The position numbers were made by a program, and so were the translations under genes. Source: Mitsuaria sp. PDC51 (GTDB lineage Bacteria > Pseudomonadota > Gammaproteobacteria > Burkholderiales > Burkholderiaceae_C). From it: 64,000 nt of DNA. The DNA is taken from the NCBI RefSeq assembly GCF_900113225.1, contig NZ_FOZE01000002.1, positions 1,488,001 to 1,552,000 on the forward strand. The letters run 5' to 3'. Of this stretch, positions 4,297 through 14,290 are shown in pieces. The stretch's first letter is position 1, and each line of letters opens with the position of its first letter. The notes under the pieces were generated by a model that was not told where the DNA came from, made no database searches, and saw nothing but the letters and a program-made list of their open reading frames with translations.

Positions 4297-5880
4297 ATGT
4301 TGACGCGTCCCGGGGCAAGGCCTGCCCCCCGAGCCCGGCCGGTCCCGGCCCTGCGACCGAAGGCGGCGGCTTCAGCAGCAGCGTTCGCAGCGGCGATCGC
4401 GGCAGCGCTCGCGCTGGCCGCCGGCGGCGCCCGCGCCGCATCGCCCGAGGCGGCCCCACCGCTGAAGGCCTGCCGCGTCGACGGTGTCTCCACCGAGGTG
4501 CTGTGCGGCCAAGTCAGCCGGCCGCTAGATCCAGCCCGGCCCGACGGCGTGCGCATCGACATCCGCTATGTCGTGGTGCCCGCGCTGGCCCGCAACAAGC
4601 TGCCCGACCCGGTGCTGCTGCTGGCCGGTGGTCCCGGCCAGAGCGCCATCGCGCTGACGGCCTCGGTGATGCCCCGGCTGTCGCGGTTGAACTATCGCCG
4701 CGACCTGGTCTTCATCGACCAGCGCGGCACCGGCCGCTCGGCGCCGCTCTCCTGCCCCGACAACAGCGACCGCAGCCTGGACGAGCTGCTCAAGCCCGGC
4801 GCCAAGGTCCGGCTGCTCGAGCAATGCCGCGACGCGCTGCAACGGCTGCCCCACGGCGACCTGCGCTTCTACACCACGACGATCGCGATGCAGGACATGG
4901 ACGCCGTGCGCGCGGCGCTCGGCGTCGAGCGCTGGAACCTGATCGGCGCGTCCTACGGCACCCGCGCGGCGCTCGAGTACCAGCGCCAGTTCCCCGACCG
5001 GGTGCGCCGCGCCGTCATCGACGGCGTCGCGCCGCCGGACATGGTGCTGCCGGTCAGCTTCTCGCAGGACGCGCAGCGCGCGCTGGACCTCAGCTTCGCC
5101 GCCTGCGCCCAGGCCGCCGACTGCCAGGCCCGCTATCCCGCGCTGAAGGCGGAATGGCAGGCGCTGCTCAAGGGCATGCCGCGCAAGGTGGCCTTCACCC
5201 ATCCGCTGACCGGGCGGCCGGAGGAAGTCACCCTGACGCGCGAAGGCCTGCTGGGCCTGGTGCGCCCGCCGCTGTACGCGCCCCAGGTCGCCGCGGCGCT
5301 GCCGGCGGCCATCCATGAAGCCTCGCTGGGCCGCTTCGACGCGCTGGCGGGGCTGGCCGGCCAGCTCGGCGGCGGCTCGCGCGCGATGCGGATCTTCGAG
5401 GGCATGCACTTCTCGGTGATCTGCGCCGAGGACGCGCCCCGCATCGCCGCCTCGACCGAGGCGCCCTCGCCCGACTTCGGCACCCTGGACCGCGACCTCT
5501 ACGCGCGCGTCTGCGCCAGCTGGCCGCGCGGCGCGGTCGAGCCCGCGTTCTATGCCCTCCCGCCGGCCCGCCATCCGGTGCTGATCGCCAGCGGCGGCAA
5601 CGATCCCGCCACGCCCGAGCGCCACGGCCAGCGCGTGCAGGCCGCGCTGGGCGCGCAGGCGCGGCATGTGGTCGTGCCCACCGCGGGCCATGGCGTCGTG
5701 CTGGCGCTGCCCTGCATGCGCGACGTGCTGTTCCGCTTCATCGACGCACCGCGGGATGCCGATGCCCTGGCCGTCGACGCGAATTGCGCCCTCAAGCTGC
5801 CGCGCCCGCCCGCCTTCCTGCCCCCCACCCCGGCGACCCTCGCGGCCGCCGCCTCCGCCGTCCGGGAGTCCGACCGATGA
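4297..5880 (+). CDS. Secreted alpha/beta hydrolase, peptidase family S33 (tripeptidyl-aminopeptidase-like)
   Basis: The 527-aa protein has an N-terminal Arg/Ala-rich signal peptide (about residues 1-48, ending near GGARAA). The hydrolase core shows the oxyanion-hole segment LLLAGGPGQSA, the DQRGTGRSAPLSC block and the nucleophile elbow GASYGTRAALEYQRQFP, then a C-terminal TAP-like domain containing IASGGNDPATP and the catalytic-His segment PTAGHGV. This is the layout of S33 proline or tripeptidyl aminopeptidases. It starts behind GGAGGAGAG and its stop overlaps the ATG of the following ABC ATPase by four bases (ATGA), so the three genes form one translational unit. A role in processing or degrading something handled by the exporter is inference. 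Confidence 0.85.
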   Translation: MLTRPGARPAPRARPVPALRPKAAASAAAFAAAIAAALALAAGGARAASPEAAPPLKACRVDGVSTEVLCGQVSRPLDPARPDGVRIDIRYVVVPALARNKLPDPVLLLAGGPGQSAIALTASVMPRLSRLNYRRDLVFIDQRGTGRSAPLSCPDNSDRSLDELLKPGAKVRLLEQCRDALQRLPHGDLRFYTTTIAMQDMDAVRAALGVERWNLIGASYGTRAALEYQRQFPDRVRRAVIDGVAPPDMVLPVSFSQDAQRALDLSFAACAQAADCQARYPALKAEWQALLKGMPRKVAFTHPLTGRPEEVTLTREGLLGLVRPPLYAPQVAAALPAAIHEASLGRFDALAGLAGQLGGGSRAMRIFEGMHFSVICAEDAPRIAASTEAPSPDFGTLDRDLYARVCASWPRGAVEPAFYALPPARHPVLIASGGNDPATPERHGQRVQAALGAQARHVVVPTAGHGVVLALPCMRDVLFRFIDAPRDADALAVDANCALKLPRPPAFLPPTPATLAAAASAVRESDR

Positions 5881-6692: not shown

Positions 6693-7867
6693 ACGGTCCC
6701 TTCCTCAAGGCTTTCCGCACCGTCTTCGCCAAGGAGATCGTCGACGCGCTGCGCGACCGCCGCACGCTGCTGCGCCTGCTGGTGCCGGCGGTGCTGATGG
6801 GGCCGCTGCTGCTGATGCTGATGTCGGGCCTGACGGCCTCGCTGCAGGAACGCGCCGAGCAGCGCGAGCTGCTCGCCGTGGGCATCGAGCATGCGCCGAC
6901 GCTGCGCAACTACCTCGAGCGCCAGACCTACACGATCAAGACCGCGCCGGCCGACTACGAGGCCCAGCTGCGCGCGTCCACGCTGAGCGATCCGGTGATG
7001 GTGGTGCCGGCCGACTTCGAGACGCTGCTGGCCGGCGGCGAAGCGCCGCGCATCGAGATCGTCACCGACAGCGCCAACCAGCGCGCCGAGGCCGGCGTGG
7101 GCACGATCAGCCGCCTGCTGCAGGGTTTCGGCAGCGAGCGCGCGACGCTGACGCTGGCGATGCGCGGCATCGGCGCGCGGCAGCTGCAGCCGGTCGAGGT
7201 CCAGGAACGCGACCTCGCCAGCCTGCAGGCGCGTTCGACGCGGCTGACCCAGATCCTGCCGATGTTCATCATGATGGCGGTGCTCTACGGCGCGCTGACC
7301 GCCGCGCTCGACAGCACCGCCGGCGAGCGCGAGCGCGGCTCGCTCGAGCCGCTGCTGGTCAATCCGGCGCCGCATGCCGCCATCGTCGCCGGCAAGTGGG
7401 CCGCGGTGATGATGGCGGGCCTGGCGGTGGCCGTGCTGTCCAACCTCAGCTTCCTGCCCGGCCAGTGGCTGATGCGCAGCGATGCGCTGGCGGCGATGTT
7501 CCAGTTCGGCTGGAGCGAGGCGCTGCGCTTCCTGCTGCTGCAGATCCCGCTGGCCGCGGGCCTGGCGGCGGTGCTGATGGCGCTGGCCATCCGCACCAAG
7601 ACCTTCAAGGAAGCGCAGGCCAGCACCACGCTGGTGGTGACCGCGATCTCGCTGGCGCCGGTGGTGGCCATCATCCATCCCGGCGGCGAGGCCTCCTGGC
7701 ACCTTTGGGTGCCGGGGCTGGGCCAGAACCTGCTCATGATGCAGGTGCTCAAGGGCGAGCCGCTGACCTTCGCGAAGGTGATGCCGACGGTGATCGTCGG
7801 CGCCGCGCTCACCGTGGCCGGGCTGGCGCTGGTGGCGCGCTCGATGCGCGCGGCCGTGGCGCGATGA
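6689..7867 (+). CDS. natB: ABC-2 type permease, NatB-like
   Basis: A 392-aa membrane subunit. It begins with a cytoplasmic segment (FRTVFAKEIVDALRDRRTLL), one membrane helix at about residues 29-46, a large extracytoplasmic domain (about 47-185) and five or so further helices in the C-terminal half (MFIMMAVLYGALTAALDS, WAAVMMAGLAVAVL, LLQIPLAAGLAAVLMAL and others). This topology, with an external domain between helices 1 and 2, is that of the NatB/ABC-2 family. Its start overlaps the end of the ATPase gene. The transported compound is unknown; the upstream secreted peptidase suggests a peptide or cell-envelope role, which is inference only. Confidence 0.84.
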   Translation: MNGPFLKAFRTVFAKEIVDALRDRRTLLRLLVPAVLMGPLLLMLMSGLTASLQERAEQRELLAVGIEHAPTLRNYLERQTYTIKTAPADYEAQLRASTLSDPVMVVPADFETLLAGGEAPRIEIVTDSANQRAEAGVGTISRLLQGFGSERATLTLAMRGIGARQLQPVEVQERDLASLQARSTRLTQILPMFIMMAVLYGALTAALDSTAGERERGSLEPLLVNPAPHAAIVAGKWAAVMMAGLAVAVLSNLSFLPGQWLMRSDALAAMFQFGWSEALRFLLLQIPLAAGLAAVLMALAIRTKTFKEAQASTTLVVTAISLAPVVAIIHPGGEASWHLWVPGLGQNLLMMQVLKGEPLTFAKVMPTVIVGAALTVAGLALVARSMRAAVAR

Positions 7868-7869
7868 GC

Positions 7870-8115
7870 TCAGTGCCGCGTCGCGAGCGCCAGCTGCACC
7901 TGCTCCTGCCACGGCAGCGTGTGCACGATGCCGTTGAGCTGGATGGCCGATTCGATGGGAGCGAGCACCTCGCCCTCGCCATTCAGGAACTGGAGATTGG
8001 TCACCAGTGCCATCGGATCGACCATCGACACGATGCCGTAAGGCATGCGCACCCAGTCCCAGGCCACGCCGGCGGCGCCGAATTCCGACTCGCCACTCCA
8101 CAGGGTTTGCCCCAT
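7870..8115 (-). CDS. Small uncharacterised protein divergent from luxR
   Basis: No family recognised. The 81-aa product is compact and globular-looking, with a conserved-looking core (MPYGIVSMVDPMALVTNLQF, then LNGEGEVLAPIESAIQLNG) and no membrane segment, Cys or signal peptide. The ATG at 8115 has a GAGG 11 bases upstream. The frame stays open to another ATG at 8241 (123 aa), but that longer form has no ribosome binding site and its extra part is AT-rich, promoter-like DNA, so I prefer the short form. It is transcribed away from the luxR gene and shares its upstream region, which holds a lux-box-like site. It may belong to the peptide-export cluster, for example as a modulator; this is a guess from position. 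Confidence 0.5.
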   Translation of the reverse strand: MGQTLWSGESEFGAAGVAWDWVRMPYGIVSMVDPMALVTNLQFLNGEGEVLAPIESAIQLNGIVHTLPWQEQVQLALATRH

Positions 8116-8240
8116 GGCCGGGTGATCCTCGTCTCCCGCCACCAACACGCGCGTGCTCAAATGCGCGAACTGTAAGCGGGGTAGACGCTGCACATCACAC
8201 AATATTCGTGGCCACGCGTACACAATCCAAGCTGGTGTCA

Positions 8241-8269
8241 TTGTCAGAATTGTTTGGTTTGGCTATTGC
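8241..8269 (+). promoter_or_regulatory. Candidate sigma-70 promoter upstream of luxR
   Basis: TTGTCA at 8241-8246 and TATTGC at 8264-8269 are separated by 17 bases inside a locally AT-rich stretch that stands out from the surrounding high-GC DNA. The site would start transcription about 200 bases before the luxR start codon. It is a by-eye match with two imperfect hexamers and has no other support. Confidence 0.3.
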
Positions 8270-8332
8270 GGATCGGCGGTTGCTGCTTCTCCCCTTGACC
8301 AGCAGTGTGGTCATGATGGGCACGACCCGCCA

Positions 8333-8350: not shown

Positions 8351-8477
8351 GGCGTGAATGCGTCACGTGGCCTATGCGGTCGCAGTGGGCGCGTGGCGGA
8401 ACCCCGACGAGCCCGGCGCCCCCCGCGACAGCCACCCGAAGAGGCCCACAAGGCCGGCCGATGGGCCGGAGCGATCA

Positions 8478-9191
8478 ATGCTGCAAGGCGGTTATCAATC
8501 AGTCCTGGAAGCGCGCTCACGCGAAGAGTTCCGCAGTGAGGTGATCCGCTTCGCGCAAAAACTGGATTTCCAGACGGTCTCGGCGATCACGGTGGTGGAC
8601 CACACGCTGGCCGACACCGAGTTCATCACCATCGACAACTGCCCCGCCGGTTATGCGGAGGTGATGCACGCGCCCGAATTCGGCCGCCGCGATCCGGTCA
8701 TGCAGCACTGCAAGCGCAACAGCATGCCCATCGTGTGGGACCGCCAGACCTACGCCCGCCACGGCGCGAGCGACATCTGGGAATCGCAGGCGCAATTCGG
8801 CTACAGCACCGGCATCTGCCTGGCGCTGCACCTGCCCGAAGGGCGGCACTTCGTGCTTGGCGTCGATCGCGACCAGCCGCTGCCCAGCGATTCGGGCCAG
8901 CTCACGCGCATGGTCGCGGACCTGCAGCTGTTCGCGGTGCACGCGGTCGACACCGCGCTGCGCGTGCTGCTGCCGGAGGAGAAGGTCACCGAATCGCCGC
9001 GGCTCACGCCGCGCGAGCTCGAGTGCCTGCATTGGACGATGGAAGGCAAGACCGCCTGGGAAGTCGGCGCCATCCTCAGCATCACCGAACGCACGGCGGT
9101 GCTGCACATCAACAATGCGATGCACAAGCTGGGCTGCTCCAACAAGCATCAGGCGGTGCTGAAGGCGCTCCGGCTGGGCCTGATTCGCTGA
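8478..9191 (+). CDS. LuxR-type quorum-sensing regulator (solo in this window)
   Basis: The 237-aa protein has an N-terminal autoinducer-binding domain (about 1-165) and a C-terminal LuxR helix-turn-helix (about 174-237: LTPRELECLHWTMEGKTAWE, then VGAILSITERTAVLHINNAM). Aligned by eye to TraR, the invariant Asp70-Pro71 (RDPV) and Trp85 (IVWD) are present, but the Trp57 position is Tyr and the Tyr61 position is Met. There is no luxI homologue in the window. A longer upstream start exists, but this ATG begins the recognisable domain. The gene is followed by a lux-box-like palindrome and the peptide-export genes, so it is the likely activator of that cluster. The altered pocket suggests an unusual AHL or a non-AHL ligand. 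Confidence 0.9.
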   Translation: MLQGGYQSVLEARSREEFRSEVIRFAQKLDFQTVSAITVVDHTLADTEFITIDNCPAGYAEVMHAPEFGRRDPVMQHCKRNSMPIVWDRQTYARHGASDIWESQAQFGYSTGICLALHLPEGRHFVLGVDRDQPLPSDSGQLTRMVADLQLFAVHAVDTALRVLLPEEKVTESPRLTPRELECLHWTMEGKTAWEVGAILSITERTAVLHINNAMHKLGCSNKHQAVLKALRLGLIR

Positions 9192-9218
9192 TGCTGCCCG
9201 CGGCGGCACCTTGTAAAC

Positions 9219-9236
9219 ACTGTAAGAGCTGACAGT
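9219..9236. promoter_or_regulatory. Lux-box palindrome upstream of the peptide gene
   Basis: ACTGTAAGAGCTGACAGT has perfect 5-bp outer arms (ACTGT/ACAGT) and fits the CT-N12-AG lux-box pattern exactly. It sits 28 bases after the luxR stop and 81 bases before the peptide start codon, where a LuxR-bound activator site would be expected. No good -10 element was recognised by eye, which is common at activator-dependent promoters. Confidence 0.6.
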
Positions 9237-9316
9237 TATGCGTCAGGCGGCGCGCTGCTTCAATGCGTCCCGTGCTCAACACTTTTCCGGGCACGTCACC
9301 GAATCTGGAGCCTCTT

Positions 9317-9505
9317 ATGCAAGCCCAACCGCAAAACGTCGCTGTCACCACGCAAGTCGAAGAAGGTCTGGTCGAGTTGGACCTGCAGGCCCTGGTTCAC
9401 GTCGGCGGCGGCGCCCCGAAGGGCACCTGGCTGGTCGGCAGCGATGCCACGCTGGCCGCGGCCGCATCGGCGGACGTGGAACCCGCGCCCAAGGGCACCT
9501 GGTGA
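9317..9505 (+). CDS. Double-glycine-leader peptide with APKGTW at both ends of the mature part
   Basis: A 62-aa precursor. GGAG at 9307-9310 sits six bases before the ATG at 9317; an in-frame start at 9263 has no such signal. Residues 21-32 (LDLQALVHVGGG) match the GG-leader pattern recognised by C39 peptidases, with hydrophobic residues at -12, -7 and -4 and Gly-Gly at -2/-1 if cut after residue 32. The mature peptide would then be 30 aa, running from APKGTW (33-38) through a small Ala/Ser/Asp-rich middle to APKGTW at the C-terminus (57-62). It has no Cys, so there are no disulfides or lanthionines. Downstream genes encode its expected exporter. It could be a signal or a bacteriocin; I do not recognise the family. 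Confidence 0.75.
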   Translation: MQAQPQNVAVTTQVEEGLVELDLQALVHVGGGAPKGTWLVGSDATLAAAASADVEPAPKGTW

Positions 9506-9558: not shown

Positions 9559-10806
9559 GTGGTGGCGCTCTTCCGCGCCGAAGCCCAGGCCTCGCAGCAG
9601 CAGGCCTGGCTGGGATCGGTGCAGCTGCATCGGCCCGCCACCTTGCGCTGGTTGAGCCTTCTGGCGCTGGGGGGTGTCGTCGCGGTCGGCGCCTTCCTGT
9701 TCAGTACCGAATACACCCGCAAGGCCCGCGTCAACGGCCTGCTGGTGCCCGAGCGGGGCGTGATGCGGCTGAGCGTGCCGCAGAGCGCCACCGTCGTGGC
9801 ACGGCCCGTCCAGGATGGGCAGCAGGTGCGTGAGGGCGACGTGCTGTTCGTGTTGTCCCTGGACAGCGCGAATCCGACGGGCGACAGCCTGTCGCGGACC
9901 TTGAAGGACCGCGAGCAATCGCTGGGTGCCGCGCAGGCGCAGCAGCGGGAACTCGCGCAGAGCCAGGCGGCCTCGCTGAAGGCGCGGATCGCCACGCTCG
10001 AATCCACGCTGCGGCAGGCCGATGCCGAGCTGCAGCTGCATGCCCAGCGCGAGGCGCTGGCGCAGCAGAGTCTGGGACGGCTGGAATCGCTGGCGAAGGA
10101 CCAGTTCGTATCGAGCGCCCAGGTCCAGACCAAGCGGGAGGAGTTGCTTGGCTTGCAGGCCCAACGGCAGGCACTTTCGCGCGAGCGCGAAAACCTGCAG
10201 CGGGAGGCGTTGGGCTTGCAAGCTGAGCTTCAGGCGATTCCCTTGAAGGCACAGGTCCAGCAAGGGGAACTCGCGCGCGACATCGCCGCGCTGCAGGCGC
10301 AGGGCGTCGAGAACGAGGCGCGCCGCCGGCTCGTGCTGCGCGCCCCGAGCGACGGCCAGATGAGCACCGTGCTGGCCGAGCCGGGCCAGGTCGTGCAGGC
10401 CGGCACGCAACTCGCCGCCCTGCTCCCCGCCCGCACGCCGCTGCAGGCGCATCTCTACGCCCCGTCCAGCGCCGTCGGCTTCCTGCGCCCGCACCAGGCG
10501 GTGTTGCTGCGCTACCAGGCCTTCCCGTACCAGAAATTCGGCCAGCAGGCCGGCGAGGTCCTGCAGGTCGCGCGCACCCCGCTGCAGGCCGCGGAGCTCG
10601 CCCAGCTCGGCCTGCCTGCCGCGATGGCGCAGGGCGAGCCGATGTACCGCATCACCGTGCAGCTGCAGCGCCAGTCGGTCGAGGCCTACGGGCAGGACCA
10701 GACGCTCAGCCCCGGTATGCTGCTCGAGGCCGACGTGCTGCTCGAGCGGCGCCGCCTGATTGAATGGATCTTCGAACCGCTGCTGAGCCTCGCCCGCCGT
10801 GTCTGA
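9559..10806 (+). CDS. HlyD-family membrane fusion protein of peptide exporter
   Basis: The 415-aa adaptor has a short cytoplasmic N-terminus, one membrane helix (about residues 31-50, LSLLALGGVVAVGAFLF), a biotinyl-lipoyl-like segment (RLSVPQSATVVARPVQDGQQ), a long Gln/Ala/Glu-rich coiled coil (about 105-240) and a C-terminal beta-barrel with LRAPSDGQMSTVLAEPGQVV. This is the architecture of the periplasmic adaptor of type I secretion systems for GG peptides (CvaA/MchE type). The first possible start is a GTG at 9559, directly after a stop and without a clear Shine-Dalgarno, so translation may depend on the upstream peptide gene. The stop overlaps the next gene by 8 bases. No TolC gene is present here. 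Confidence 0.9.
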   Translation: MVALFRAEAQASQQQAWLGSVQLHRPATLRWLSLLALGGVVAVGAFLFSTEYTRKARVNGLLVPERGVMRLSVPQSATVVARPVQDGQQVREGDVLFVLSLDSANPTGDSLSRTLKDREQSLGAAQAQQRELAQSQAASLKARIATLESTLRQADAELQLHAQREALAQQSLGRLESLAKDQFVSSAQVQTKREELLGLQAQRQALSRERENLQREALGLQAELQAIPLKAQVQQGELARDIAALQAQGVENEARRRLVLRAPSDGQMSTVLAEPGQVVQAGTQLAALLPARTPLQAHLYAPSSAVGFLRPHQAVLLRYQAFPYQKFGQQAGEVLQVARTPLQAAELAQLGLPAAMAQGEPMYRITVQLQRQSVEAYGQDQTLSPGMLLEADVLLERRRLIEWIFEPLLSLARRV

Positions 10807-12979
10807 CGTCCCAGCTTCCGGCGCCCCGCCAGGCGCTCCGCCGCCGGGCGCCGCGCCCACCGGCTTCCTGGCGAAGCTGAACCTCGGCTGGCGCCGCCGC
10901 CGTCCCGTCATCCTGCAGACCGAGGCCGCCGAGTGCGGCCTCGCCTGCCTGGCCATGGTCGCCGCGGCGCACGGCCAGCGCTGGGCACTGGGCGAGCTGC
11001 GGGACCGCTTCGCCGTCTCGCTCAAGGGCCTGACGATGGCGGACCTGGTCCGCATGGGCGCGCAGCTCGGCCTCACCGCCCGCGCGCTGCGCGCCGAGCC
11101 GCACACGCTGCACAAGCTGCACACGCCCTGCATCCTGCACTGGGACTTCAACCACTTCGTCGTGCTGGACCGCGTCGACGGCGACCGCGCGGTCGTGCTC
11201 GATCCCGCGCACGGCGAGCGCCGGCTGCCGCTGGCCGAGGTCTCCAAGCACTTCACCGGCGTCGCGCTCGAACTGCGGCCCGGCATGGACTTCGCCCGCA
11301 AGGCGCCGGCGCCGGCGCCCCAATGGCGGCAGCTGCTCGGCCACGTCAGCGGGCTCAAGCGCTCCATCGCGCAGGTGCTCGCGCTCGCGCTCGGACTTGA
11401 GTTGCTGGGCCTGCTCGCGCCCTTCCTGCTGCAATGGACCGTCGACGGCGTCATCGTCAGCGCCGACCGCGACCTGCTCGTCACGCTGGGCATCGGCTTC
11501 GCGCTGCTCGTGCTGCTGCAGGTCGGCATGGGCCTGCTGCGCTCATGGGCGGTGATGATCCTGTCGGCCTCGCTCAACCTGCAGTGGCTCTCCAACGTCT
11601 TCTCGCACCTCCTGCGGCTGCCGCTGGCCTGGTTCGAGAAACGCCATCTCGGCGACATCTGGTCGCGCTTCTCCAGCGTCCAGGAGATCCAGAAAACGCT
11701 GACCGGCAGCTTCATCGAGGCCGTGCTGGACGGCCTCATGGTCCTGCTCACGCTGGCGATGATGGTGCTCTACAGCGGCCGCCTCACGGCGGTCGCGCTC
11801 ACCGCGGTGGCCGGCTACGCGCTGCTGCGCTGGGCTTGCTTCCGGCCGCTGCGCGACGCGCAGGAAGAGGCGCTGACCCACGAGGCGCGCCAGAGCAGCC
11901 ACTTCCTCGAATCGCTGCGCGGCGCGCAGGCGATCAAGCTCTTCAACGCGCAGGCCGATCGCGGCGCGCGTTTCGCCAACCTGGTCGTCGAGCAGATGAA
12001 CGCCTCGCTCACCGGCCGCAAGCTCGAGCTCGGCATGACGCAGGGCAACAAGCTGCTGTTCGGGCTCGAGCGCGTCGCCATCGTCGCGCTGGGCGCGATG
12101 CTCGTGCTGGACAAGGAACTCTCCGTCGGCATGCTGTTCGCGTTCCTCGCCTACAAGGACCAGTTCAGCCAACGCATCGCCGGCCTGATCGACAAGGTCG
12201 TCGCGCTCAAGATGCTGCGCCTGCAGGGCGAGCGCCTGGCTGACATCGTCCTCACCGCGCCGGAGGCCGACCTGGACGCGCCCGGCCGCGCGGTGCCGCG
12301 CGAGGCGCCGCTGGAGCTCGACGGCCTGCGCTTCCGTTACGCCGACGGCGAGCCGGAGGTCATTGCCGGCTGCTCACTGCGCATCGAGCCTGGCGAATCG
12401 GTCGCCATCGTCGGCCCGTCGGGCTGCGGCAAGACCACGCTGATGAAGCTCATGCTGGGCATCCACGCGCCGCAGCACGGCGAGATCCGCATCGGTGGCG
12501 TCGCCCTCGCCCAGCTGGGCACCAATGCCTGGCGCGAGCGCATCGGCACGGTCATGCAGGACGACCAGCTCTTCGCCGGCAGCATCGCCGACAACATCAG
12601 CTTCTTCGACCTCAACGTCGATCCTGACTGGGTCCGCGAATGCGCGCGACTGGCCTGCGTCCTGGAGGACATCGAGGCCATGCCGATGCGTTTCCAGACG
12701 CTGATCGGCGACATGGGCTCGAGCCTGTCCGGCGGCCAGCGCCAGCGCATCCTGCTGGCCCGAGCGCTCTACAAGCGCCCGCAGTTCCTGTTCCTGGACG
12801 AGGCGACGAGCGCGCTCGACGTCGAGCGCGAGCGCCTCGTCAACGCCAGCCTGCGCCAGCTCTCGCTGACGCGCATCGTCATCGCGCACCGCCCCGAAAC
12901 CATCGCCGCCGCCCAACGCGTCGTCAGCCTGCAAGGCGGCCGCGTCGTGCAGGACCTGCGCTCGGTCCAGCACCGCTGA
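10799..12979 (+). CDS. Peptidase C39-containing ABC exporter (PCAT) for the GG peptide
   Basis: The 726-aa protein combines an N-terminal C39 cysteine peptidase, six membrane helices and a C-terminal ATPase. The peptidase shows QTEAAECGLACLAM with the catalytic Cys at residue 46, the catalytic His in HWDFNHFVVL and the Asp in LDPAHG. The ATPase has Walker [10 protein letters not shown] (about 540), LSGGQRQR (about 643) and Walker B FLFLDEATSALD. PCATs cut leader peptides after Gly-Gly and export the mature part with an HlyD/TolC partner. The GTG start at 10799 lies inside the end of the HlyD gene, showing tight coupling. All catalytic residues needed for activity are present; its substrate is very probably the peptide encoded at 9317-9505. 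Confidence 0.94.
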   Translation: MSDVPASGAPPGAPPPGAAPTGFLAKLNLGWRRRRPVILQTEAAECGLACLAMVAAAHGQRWALGELRDRFAVSLKGLTMADLVRMGAQLGLTARALRAEPHTLHKLHTPCILHWDFNHFVVLDRVDGDRAVVLDPAHGERRLPLAEVSKHFTGVALELRPGMDFARKAPAPAPQWRQLLGHVSGLKRSIAQVLALALGLELLGLLAPFLLQWTVDGVIVSADRDLLVTLGIGFALLVLLQVGMGLLRSWAVMILSASLNLQWLSNVFSHLLRLPLAWFEKRHLGDIWSRFSSVQEIQKTLTGSFIEAVLDGLMVLLTLAMMVLYSGRLTAVALTAVAGYALLRWACFRPLRDAQEEALTHEARQSSHFLESLRGAQAIKLFNAQADRGARFANLVVEQMNASLTGRKLELGMTQGNKLLFGLERVAIVALGAMLVLDKELSVGMLFAFLAYKDQFSQRIAGLIDKVVALKMLRLQGERLADIVLTAPEADLDAPGRAVPREAPLELDGLRFRYADGEPEVIAGCSLRIEPGESVAIVGPSGCGKTTLMKLMLGIHAPQHGEIRIGGVALAQLGTNAWRERIGTVMQDDQLFAGSIADNISFFDLNVDPDWVRECARLACVLEDIEAMPMRFQTLIGDMGSSLSGGQRQRILLARALYKRPQFLFLDEATSALDVERERLVNASLRQLSLTRIVIAHRPETIAAAQRVVSLQGGRVVQDLRSVQHR

Positions 12980-13198: not shown

Positions 13199-14200
13199 TC
13201 AATCGGGCTTGATCTTCGCCCGTGCCACCACCTGCTTCCAGCGCTGCTGTTCCTGCGCAATGAACGCCGCGAATTGCGCCGGCGTATTGCCGATCGGTTC
13301 CGCCGCATCGTGGCTGAGGCGCTCCTTCGCAGAAACCGATCGGATGGCCTTCGCCGATTCCACGGCGAGTTTGTCCGTGTTTGCCGCCGCGAGATTGGCC
13401 GGCGCGCACAGCCCGTACCACTGGGTCATTTCGAAGCCTGGATAGCCTTGCTCGGCGACGGTTGGCACGTCGGGCAATTGGGGCAGGCGTTCCTTCGAGC
13501 CGGTAGCCAGGCAGCGCAGCTTCCCGGCCTTGATGAATTGAAGGATGGCCGGCGCGCCGACCGACGCGGCCTCGAGCCGTCCCGCCAGCAGGTCGGTCAA
13601 TTGCGGGCCGGTGCCGCGGTACGGAACGTGGAGGATGAACAGGTCGGCGACCATTTTGAGGTACTCCATCGCCAGGTGCCCCGCGCTGCCGTTACCGGCC
13701 GAGCCGTAGCTGAATTTGCCAGGGTTCTTGCGCACCAGCGCGACCCATTCCTTGAGGTTCTTCGCCGGCACGTCGGGATGGACGACGTAGAGGCTGGGCA
13801 CCTTGGCCAGCAGCGTGATCGGCTTGAAGTCGCGGTTGGGGTCGTAGGGCAGTTTGTCGTAGATGTACGGGTTCACTGCCAGCGTCCCGATGTGGCCGAG
13901 GATCAGCGTGTGCTGGTCCTCCGCGCGCGCCACCTCCACCATCGCGATGTTGCCGCCGCCGCCGGGTTTGTTGTCGACGTAGACCGCCTGGCCCAGCGTC
14001 TTGCTCAGTTCGGCGGCGGTGGCGCGGGCCACGATCTCGCTGCTGCCGCCGGGCGCGAAGGGCACGACCAGCCGCACGTTGCGCGACGGCCAGGTGGATT
14101 GCGCGAAGGCGGGGGCGCTTGCGCCGAGGGTCGTGCCCGTGGCGCCGAGCGCGGCGGATTGGAGGAGGAAGCGGCGGCGGTCCTCGTTCGTGGGGGTCAT
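13199..14200 (-). CDS. Bug-family (TctC-like) tripartite tricarboxylate transporter receptor
   Basis: The 333-aa periplasmic solute-binding protein has an N-terminal RRRFLLQSAALGATG segment, a Tat-like twin-arginine signal, and the Bug signature VRLVVPFAPGGSSEIVARAT followed by GQAVYVDNKPGGGGNIAMVEV. Bug receptors bind carboxylates such as citrate or aromatic acids, and Burkholderiales genomes carry many orphan copies. The TctA and TctB membrane subunits are absent here, so this is one of the orphans. The ATG at 14200 is preceded on its strand by GGAGACAT; a longer frame upstream is rejected. Ligand unknown. Confidence 0.92.
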   Translation of the reverse strand: MTPTNEDRRRFLLQSAALGATGTTLGASAPAFAQSTWPSRNVRLVVPFAPGGSSEIVARATAAELSKTLGQAVYVDNKPGGGGNIAMVEVARAEDQHTLILGHIGTLAVNPYIYDKLPYDPNRDFKPITLLAKVPSLYVVHPDVPAKNLKEWVALVRKNPGKFSYGSAGNGSAGHLAMEYLKMVADLFILHVPYRGTGPQLTDLLAGRLEAASVGAPAILQFIKAGKLRCLATGSKERLPQLPDVPTVAEQGYPGFEMTQWYGLCAPANLAAANTDKLAVESAKAIRSVSAKERLSHDAAEPIGNTPAQFAAFIAQEQQRWKQVVARAKIKPD

Positions 14201-14290
14201 GCGATGTCTCCGGTCGGTTCTTCTGGAGAGGATGACTCTACGAACACGCGCTTTCAAGGCGCTGTCGGTCCGTCGGCGCCGCGTGAGGGC

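Follow-up and report, generated by a model that had tools for sequence, protein, structure and literature searches.

A LuxR-type regulator paired with a tiny xPxxxW peptide gene in the place of luxI: a putative peptide pheromone system in one bacterial family

Organization of the locus

The DNA considered here (the window) is a stretch of 64,000 nucleotides from Mitsuaria sp. PDC51, and positions are counted from its first letter. It contains a very short gene that is preceded by a gene for a LuxR-type regulator (8358-9191) and followed by genes for an HlyD-type protein and a C39 exporter (9559-12979), all on the forward strand. The features of the locus are as follows.

7870..8241, reverse strand: RsaM-like gene (123 amino acids), divergent from luxR and just upstream of it
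8358..9191, forward strand: LuxR-type regulator gene (PF03472, autoinducer-binding domain, E=2.8e-23; PF00196, GerE HTH, E=1.9e-15; both over the cut-off)
9220..9235, forward strand: lux-box-like operator CTGTAAGAGCTGACAG
9256..9264, forward strand: conserved extended -10 element TGCTTCAAT, from the operator-anchored consensus of 80 promoters (gcTGcTnnAAT)
9307..9310, forward strand: ribosome-binding site GGAG, read from the sequence by eye
9317-9505, forward strand: peptide gene, encoding a 62-residue precursor, MQAQPQNVAVTTQVEEGLVELDLQALVHVGGG followed by APKGTWLVGSDATLAAAASADVEPAPKGTW
9317..9412, forward strand: predicted GG leader, residues 1-32, judged from the sequence and its relatives
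9413..9430, forward strand: core copy 1, APKGTW, residues 33-38 (GCC CCG AAG GGC ACC TGG)
9431..9484, forward strand: spacer of 18 residues, varying among relatives
9485..9502, forward strand: core copy 2, APKGTW, residues 57-62 (GCG CCC AAG GGC ACC TGG)
9503-9505, forward strand: stop codon, directly after core copy 2
9559..10806, forward strand: gene for an HlyD-type membrane-fusion protein (PF13437, E=7.3e-15; TIGR01843 at 122.3 bits, under its cut-off of 208.65)
10799..12979, forward strand: gene for an ABC exporter containing a C39 peptidase (PF03412, E=1.8e-34; PF00664; PF00005)

The preliminary description of this DNA had drawn attention to a 62-residue peptide bearing APKGTW twice, with different codons in the first two positions of the two copies, and both the peptide and the codons are indeed present. 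It had also placed the cut after residue 32; this register sets Leu, Leu and Val at positions -12, -7 and -4, in agreement with the GG-leader consensus of hydrophobic residues at -4, -7 and -12, and a relative (L016) reading SGA/GPKGGW agrees with it. We accept 9317 as the start because the frame is closed just upstream in the relatives L009-L013. The precursor has no match in Pfam or NCBIfam.

Both a GG leader with these hydrophobic residues and an adjoining C39 exporter are thus present in the window, the exporter having ECGLAC, NH and DP, read by eye, which we take to hold its catalytic Cys, His and Asp. Between the peptide gene and a gene for a TctC-type receptor (13199-14257, reverse strand) there are only the HlyD and C39 genes and no modification enzyme, and the NHLP exporter models score under their cut-offs (TIGR03796, 496.7 bits against 853.3; TIGR03794, 66.4 against 156.2). 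Lanthipeptide and NHLP-type products were set aside because the locus has no modification enzyme, and microcins and class II bacteriocins because the peptide has no Cys. None of the five locus proteins scanned matches the TPR family, and the locus holds no peptide importer. Some congeners have the TctC-type gene between exporter and mnmG; in others it was not found at that place. PF03412 has seven matches in the genome of PDC51 itself (G000), so that other GG-leader peptides may be made by this strain.

Conservation and copy number of the xPxxxW unit

The precursor is conserved far beyond chance. Among 100 relatives searched, 15 of the 16 members of the genus (PDC51 included) have a homologue, as does one genome of another genus, and a profile search revealed a divergent homologue in the sixteenth, with APTKGW as its core, present twice. 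Both copies change together, the pairs being APKGTW, TPKGTW or APTKGW within the genus and GPKGGW in another genus. In one scan of genome contigs, which gave 11 loci, the named relatives belong to Roseateles and Mitsuaria, next to three metagenome-assembled genomes. When 399 genomes of the GTDB family were searched by pattern, eight proved to have two PKGxW motifs that are spaced apart and precede a stop; four copies of SPKGTW are present in three of these, all from genus g29.

A search with 240 residues of LuxR gave relatives at E<=1e-50 in 102 of the 399 family genomes, and in three of 399 genomes drawn from the whole order, namely that of PDC51, G146 (same family) and G520 (38% identity). 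Eighty stretches around the better LuxR matches were fetched; duplicates (L042, equal to L072, and L047, equal to L068) and secondary LuxR paralogues of tandem arrays were left out, and the 96 primary loci include two, L177 and L178, that share one genome. At 90 of these 96 loci, LuxR is followed downstream by a gene with an xPxxxW (88) or xPxxxxW (two) motif, and all LuxR-linked xPxxxW loci counted fall in one GTDB family. Our first ORF picker found a GG-leader peptide at 86 loci, 84 of them with xP(3-4)W; six further loci have the motif, five without a GG leader and one (L120) with a GTG start. The remaining six comprise GG peptides without the Trp motif (L124, L131), contig edges (L134, L180) and loci with no peptide (L140, L178). 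As this picker rewarded a terminal Trp with points, we take the Trp count from a Trp-blind picker guided by operator position and GG leader, which found a GG-leader ORF in the slot at 80 of 88 operator-bearing loci; 73 of these 80 end in P-x(3-4)-W. Pro at position 2 and Trp at position 6 are part of the core pattern itself, so their invariance among cores is true by definition. The 88 loci hold 53 distinct cores, the 7-residue cores of L156 and L158 being excluded from core statistics.

The 86 GG precursors have one (49), two (31), four (three) or five (one) copies of the core, or none (two), and the leaderless L181 has three. Within a precursor the copies are identical in 32 of 35 multi-copy cases, whereas between precursors 2.6% of pairs are identical. 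A single copy may be the N-terminal one (L166, L157) or the C-terminal one (L114, L115), residues follow the Trp in some precursors (L127, L167, L174), and several single-copy precursors are a leader plus a hexapeptide and nothing more (GG/APRPMW, GG/LPKATW, GG/APGRRW). Loss of copies at either end, tails after the Trp and bare leader-plus-hexapeptide precursors together argue that the unit is a short peptide; judged from the sequences, the repeat unit is xPxxxW in one to five copies, and a two-ended 30-mer appears to be beside the point. The spacers between copies are very short in L175, L122 and L142 (7, 3 and 1 residues), which suggests that cut sites lie close to the repeats.

The preliminary description had considered an exported signal, a two-headed bacteriocin and a substrate for end-to-end joining. 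The first fits best; the other two are disfavoured by the copies lost from either end, the precursors with one, three, four or five copies and the leaderless forms. Homologues that have lost one hexapeptide, which it had regarded as damaging, do exist, and they refute the two-ended reading while leaving the signal reading untouched. A two-ended or end-joined 30-mer as the active form would suit the window peptide and its Roseateles relatives, but it is extremely unlikely in view of relatives with one copy at either end, with three to five copies or with abutting copies. End-to-end joining was set aside for the loss of copies from either end in relatives.

A dispensable leader and exporter

The constant parts of the locus are the divergently oriented RsaM-like gene, a LuxR whose AHL-contact residues are altered (AHL, acyl-homoserine lactone), a lux box that hardly varies and the peptide gene. 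LuxR and peptide remain neighbours at a shared site, from which HlyD and C39 are missing in 11 of 23 stretches, or nine of 18 genomes when stretches from the same contig are merged. These nine genomes have three to six C39-domain matches elsewhere, so another exporter may serve. Hunting for short ORFs beside C39 exporters, as proposed earlier, would miss the loci that lack an adjacent exporter. In genus g29 a stand-alone gene for a C39-like domain follows the four-copy peptide and no exporter is found there; in L062 this gene lies 336-810 bases past the LuxR stop and by eye lacks the catalytic Cys, and C39-like matches occur at the equivalent place in G043 and G289.

In genus g12, LuxR and the operator (exact in three loci, with one mismatch in two) are followed by micro-genes without a GG leader: MIATTTRQANTTTELPRAGW, MQVLLPRNAW, MQAVKTVSTRPVQLPRAGW, MQASRHATATIRRNPKGGW and MKPSHALDASSLSPKGGWSPKGGWWAPKGGW, for some of which longer in-frame starts exist. 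A C39 domain is absent from two of the five genomes (G026, G407) and has one match in each of the other three, one of them partial. What remains in g12 is LuxR, operator and xPxxxW, and leader and exporter appear to be dispensable.

These loci bear on the possibility that the ligand is cell-autonomous, i.e. that the peptide or its precursor binds LuxR within the producing cell while the exporter drains or meters it, which would make the system a timer and not a means of cell-to-cell signalling. LuxR is expected to be cytoplasmic, the locus has no importer, and g12 keeps LuxR and operator together with xPxxxW micro-genes that carry no GG leader, two of its five species tested being without any C39 domain. 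However, 71 of the 96 loci keep an adjacent C39 exporter, most of the loci keep a GG leader, and the matched alleles of core and ligand-binding domain described below, which recur across species, look like signalling specificity. We regard a cell-autonomous ligand as rather unlikely.

Operator and promoter

Upstream of the peptide gene lies the sole CTGT-N8-ACAG of the window, a count that by itself tells little, since 0.63 would be expected by chance. The half-site spacing is that of the Vibrio fischeri lux box. The exact sequence CTGTAAGANNTGACAG occurs once in the 5.85 Mb genome, and the operator is found with at most two mismatches at 88 of the 96 loci. The consensus of the 80 promoters whose operator has no more than one mismatch is CTGTAAGA-gt-TGACAGTtac, followed by 14 variable bases and gcTGcTnnAAT. 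The exact operator is present in 54 of the 55 LuxR-bearing genomes given, a subset of the more than 100 known, lying beside LuxR in 52 and occurring exactly once in 48; 25 genomes that lack this LuxR have none. G131 is without an exact site. In G043 and G208 the exact sites lie elsewhere, and the operator preceding the peptide has three mismatches.

From the -10 element we would place the operator centre about 43 bp upstream of the start site. A lux box centred near -43 is in the usual activating position, which speaks against the alternative that the peptide acts as a co-repressor, binding LuxR and turning the promoter off as a feedback limiter. The sign of regulation is not readable from sequence, and the operator does hold a -35-like tTGACA, its first position being T in 50 of the 80 promoters; yet this hexamer is separated from the conserved extended -10 by 24 bases, a distance too great for it to serve directly. 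A co-repressor thus seems quite unlikely.

The operator, usually unique in its genome, points to no target of the putative signal beyond its own operon. Eight stretches around extra exact operators in six genomes contained no further xPxxxW gene and no clear target. The one-mismatch sites L104 and L105 in the genome of PDC51, for which ORFs were listed, were dropped, about two being expected by chance (a hand estimate). In two g29 genomes (L219, near position 5000, and L220, on the minus strand) a gene that by eye resembles those for flavin-dependent tryptophan halogenases is followed, 150-175 bases downstream, by an exact operator.

The LuxR-type regulator and its RsaM-like companion

The conserved core of LuxR begins at the Met at 8478, and we number its residues so that residue n starts at 8469+3(n-1), residue 72 being 8682-8684 and residue 117 being 8817-8819. 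With AHL-site positions mapped by hand from the LasR alignment and given in TraR numbering, D70, P71, W85 and G113 are kept in 92, 95, 95 and 95 of 95 sequences. The W57 position is Trp in six of 95 and Tyr or Phe in 87; the Y61 position is Tyr in 13 and Phe or Met in 57. The window LuxR has Tyr and Met there, and the full six-residue AHL site (W57, Y61, D70, P71, W85, G113) is not retained. An AHL synthase (PF00765) was found neither in the genome of PDC51 nor, counting it, in 38 of 48 genomes tested; the other ten, one with a partial match, serve as positive control, and 14 control genomes gave no match. Tandem arrays of three to five LuxR paralogues adjoin the system in G121, G151, G251, G266 and G396 (L168, L159, L162, L150 and L151, respectively), and in each the operator is found only after the best-matching paralogue. 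AlphaFold2 models of LuxR (pLDDT 57.6) and of the RsaM-like protein (36.0) were too poor for use.

RsaM is a modulator in AHL systems, and the divergent gene probably encodes a modulator as well. A homologue on the strand opposite to LuxR is found in 93 of the 96 fetched stretches. A profile of 30 members has a single PDB match, 4O2H (BCAM1869, an RsaM; E=2.3e-4), and DUF4902 is matched by 27 of the 30 at E<=0.1 (best 1.3e-5), the window protein itself reaching 13.5 bits, below the gathering cut-off of 25 bits. Its W48, W61, W63 and W111 align with Trp residues of RsaM, whose conserved Trp quartet is described in the accessible part of PMC10710839. The same part reports, for Pelomonas, Kinneretia and other genera, luxR solos that have rsaM next to them in divergent orientation and no luxI, and mentions no peptide at these loci. 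With an RsaM-like gene beside luxR and no luxI, the site therefore resembles a quorum-sensing locus in which the peptide gene would take the place of the synthase gene.

The core peptide tracks the ligand-binding domain of LuxR

Comparison of congeners reveals what appears to be an allelic exchange. The ligand-binding domain (LBD) of LuxR is 92-99% identical to that of the window in five congeners with the same core (A-type, APKGTW) and 63-67% identical in nine with TPKGTW (T-type), in which the HTH remains 92-98% identical; the T-type LBDs are 83-98% alike across species. In the T-type G013, HlyD (97%), C39 (95%), MnmG (96%) and HTH (98%) are nearly those of the window, whereas the LBD is 63% identical. 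At the nucleotide level, identity between the window and G013 is 84-95% over 7801-8300, falls to 57-76% over 8401-8900, returns to 94-96% over 9001-9200 and is 71-80% in the peptide gene; the A-type G002 retains 83-93% over 8501-8900. An LBD exchanged together with the core is, as far as sequence can tell, the pattern of pherotype alleles.

The same association holds more widely. Core distance correlates with LBD distance (r=0.44, 82 loci), also with HTH distance removed (r=0.36, p=5e-4) and with HTH and C39 distance removed (partial Mantel r=0.32, p=5e-4, 66 exporter-bearing loci), although the partial Mantel test is liberal on related sequences. Given the LBD, the core correlates neither with the HTH (r=0.05, p=0.20) nor with C39 (r=-0.03, p=0.83). 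The core thus appears to track the LBD of LuxR, and neither the exporter nor the DNA-binding domain. This cannot be put down to linkage alone, because the HTH-coding end lies nearer the peptide gene than the LBD end.

Core residues covary with pocket residues

In 55 representatives with LuxR under 85% identical, the strongest pairs of core and LuxR positions are core1-117, core3-78, core5-72, core3-71, core4-54 and core3-103. LuxR positions 117, 78, 103, 66 and 62 correspond to LasR Thr115, Val76, Phe101, Tyr64 and Trp60, all among the 20 LasR contacts of a docking table in the accessible part of PMC12061423; the LasR pocket was mapped by hand, and residue 72 (opposite LasR Ala70) is outside the pocket list used. 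Pocket sites covary with the core more than other LBD sites do (p=2e-4, 115 sites), and five of the ten top covarying sites are among the 11 variable pocket sites of 153 (p=1.5e-4).

Eight of 612 core-LuxR pairs exceed z=4 and five exceed 5 (maximum 8.8). With the leader in place of the core, six of 1812 pairs exceed 4 and none 5, in a control that is rough, the GG position having been set by a simple pattern with columns partly out of register. The control of core against C39 (47 sequences) is not clean, as ten of 1620 pairs exceed 4 and six exceed 5 (maximum 7.1); core against LuxR in those 47 sequences gives nine of 596 above 4 and four above 5 (maximum 10.4).

The clearest rule is steric, a size complementarity between core position 5 and LuxR residue 72. 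Thr at core5 goes with Gly72 in 14 of 17 representatives and Gly at core5 in none of 29, Trp, Ala, Met or another residue standing there instead. Over 88 loci, a core5 with a side chain occurs with Gly72 in 40 and without it in 11, and Gly at core5 occurs without Gly72 in 37 and never with it (Fisher 2.7e-15; 1e-8 for the 55 representatives). A tree from which the covarying sites were left out gives 17 changes at core5 and 15 at residue 72, with eight branches on which both change (p=6e-6, or about 0.004 after Bonferroni correction over 612 pairs); the pair was picked from these 612, and the Fisher and branch classes were set after seeing the data. Among seven loci outside the rule-finding set, the six whose core5 is Gly or Thr obey the rule without exception, although four of these come from one genus, and the seventh, with Ala, is neutral; a held-out draw of 399 relatives of G146 gave one new LuxR locus at threshold, L226. 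Pro at core4 and Trp54 coincide in all four loci concerned.

Here the alternative must be weighed that the xPxxxW peptides are antimicrobials or other effectors and that LuxR senses an AHL or another small molecule. A C39 exporter with HlyD is a usual bacteriocin arrangement, the AHL site keeps its Asp, Pro, Trp and Gly, and LuxI is found in ten of the 48 genomes. However, an effector leaves unexplained the covariation of core and pocket on the same branches, the change of the LBD with the core while its neighbours stay constant and the leaderless versions of 10 residues, and the TraR Trp57 position is Trp in only six of 95 sequences. We consider this alternative very unlikely.

A proposed peptide circuit

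We propose that LuxR uses its AHL pocket to sense a peptide pheromone encoded at the locus by a gene standing in luxI's place, and put the probability of this reading at roughly three in four. The precursor would carry a short linear pheromone, which in the window is APKGTW and is present twice. Where a species has the C39 exporter, this would cut after GG(G) and secrete the product, which other proteases would trim, freeing the xPxxxW copies. The peptide would then enter the cytoplasm, a peptide permease being the natural candidate, and the hexapeptide would occupy the pocket that holds the acyl-homoserine lactone in AHL receptors. LuxR would bind the lux box upstream of the peptide gene and activate the peptide-exporter operon, and more peptide and exporter would close a positive loop. 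The layout would be that of rsaM-luxR-luxI with the peptide gene replacing luxI. What the sequences themselves show is the anatomy of the locus, its conservation, the concerted change of the copies, the operator, the swap of alleles and the covariation; binding, the sign of regulation, processing, secretion and uptake are all steps that we infer.

Uptake is the weakest link of this circuit. A precedent is the LuxR solo PipR, which answers to Ser-His-Ser and needs an ABC importer (PMC4981722, accessible part). Counting against a pheromone are the missing importer at the locus, the imperfect C39 control, the 11 of 51 side-chain cores without Gly72, LuxI in ten of 48 genomes, the peptides of L124 and L131 without the Trp motif and the lack of a peptide in L140 and L178.

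It also seems fairly probable that the loci form a family of Gram-negative quorum-sensing circuits in which a tiny peptide gene has replaced the AHL synthase, with more than 50 xPxxxW pherotypes, each recognized by its own LuxR through the AHL pocket, with single-residue changes matched by changes in the pocket, and with a leaderless form that would do without any known exporter. Gram-negative LuxR signalling is textbook small-molecule signalling, and for many LuxR solos the ligands are not known. If the proposal is true, a receptor of the LuxR family whose autoinducer is a genetically encoded peptide would represent a new signalling class, in which the ligand could be read from the next gene and the specificity of receptor for ligand would be predictable and testable from sequence by residue-by-residue rules. 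It would provide an encodable, orthogonal set of signals for LuxR receptors, would show how one receptor fold could shift from lactone to peptide, and could explain the published rsaM-luxR-solo loci without a synthase.

Comparison with known systems

Among the open-access papers listed, none appears to describe this peptide family or a LuxR whose signal is an encoded peptide; the search was confined to open-access papers, and the novelty of the system rests on that literature. The pheromones of Gram-positive RRNPP systems (Phr, PapR, SHP) are short linear peptides cut from a precursor, sensed by a cytoplasmic TPR receptor and differentiated into pherotypes. The present system would share the short linear peptide, the cytoplasmic receptor and the pherotypes, but its candidate receptor is a LuxR, and the bacteria are Gram-negative. 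With the peptides of GG-leader/C39 systems (class II bacteriocins, CSP-type pheromones, NHLP) it has in common the GG leader, the C39 ABC exporter and the HlyD partner, and it differs in the Cys-free xPxxxW repeat, in having no modification enzyme and in a leader and exporter that are dispensable in relatives. Precursors of the yeast alpha-factor type contain several identical short copies with spacers, which is a likeness of design only, given the bacterial origin, the GG leader and the LuxR receptor candidate of the present system.

Other parallels exist among LuxR proteins. The plant-responsive PipR/OryR group likewise consists of LuxR solos, PipR answering to a tripeptide and needing an ABC importer (PMC4981722, accessible part). 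According to the accessible part of PMC4338825, PipR, whose neighbours comprise peptidases and an importer, takes its signal from plant macerates or protein hydrolysates, and members of the OryR group have W57M and Y61W. In contrast, the peptide is here encoded next door and the W57 and Y61 positions are mostly Tyr or Phe and Phe, Met or Tyr, respectively; W57M, Y61W and the neighbouring proline iminopeptidase of that group (PMC4338825, accessible part) are absent from the window locus, which has different neighbours.

Similar in layout are the AHL-based LuxI/LuxR systems with RsaM, including the type 6 arrangement in which rsaM is divergent from a luxR solo. They share with the present locus the LuxR domains, the geometry of the lux box and an rsaM-like gene beside luxR, whereas here no luxI is found at the site, which has a peptide gene and an exporter instead, and the Trp57 and Tyr61 contact positions are mostly replaced. 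The type 6 arrangement in Roseateles relatives may in fact be the peptide locus seen without its peptide gene.
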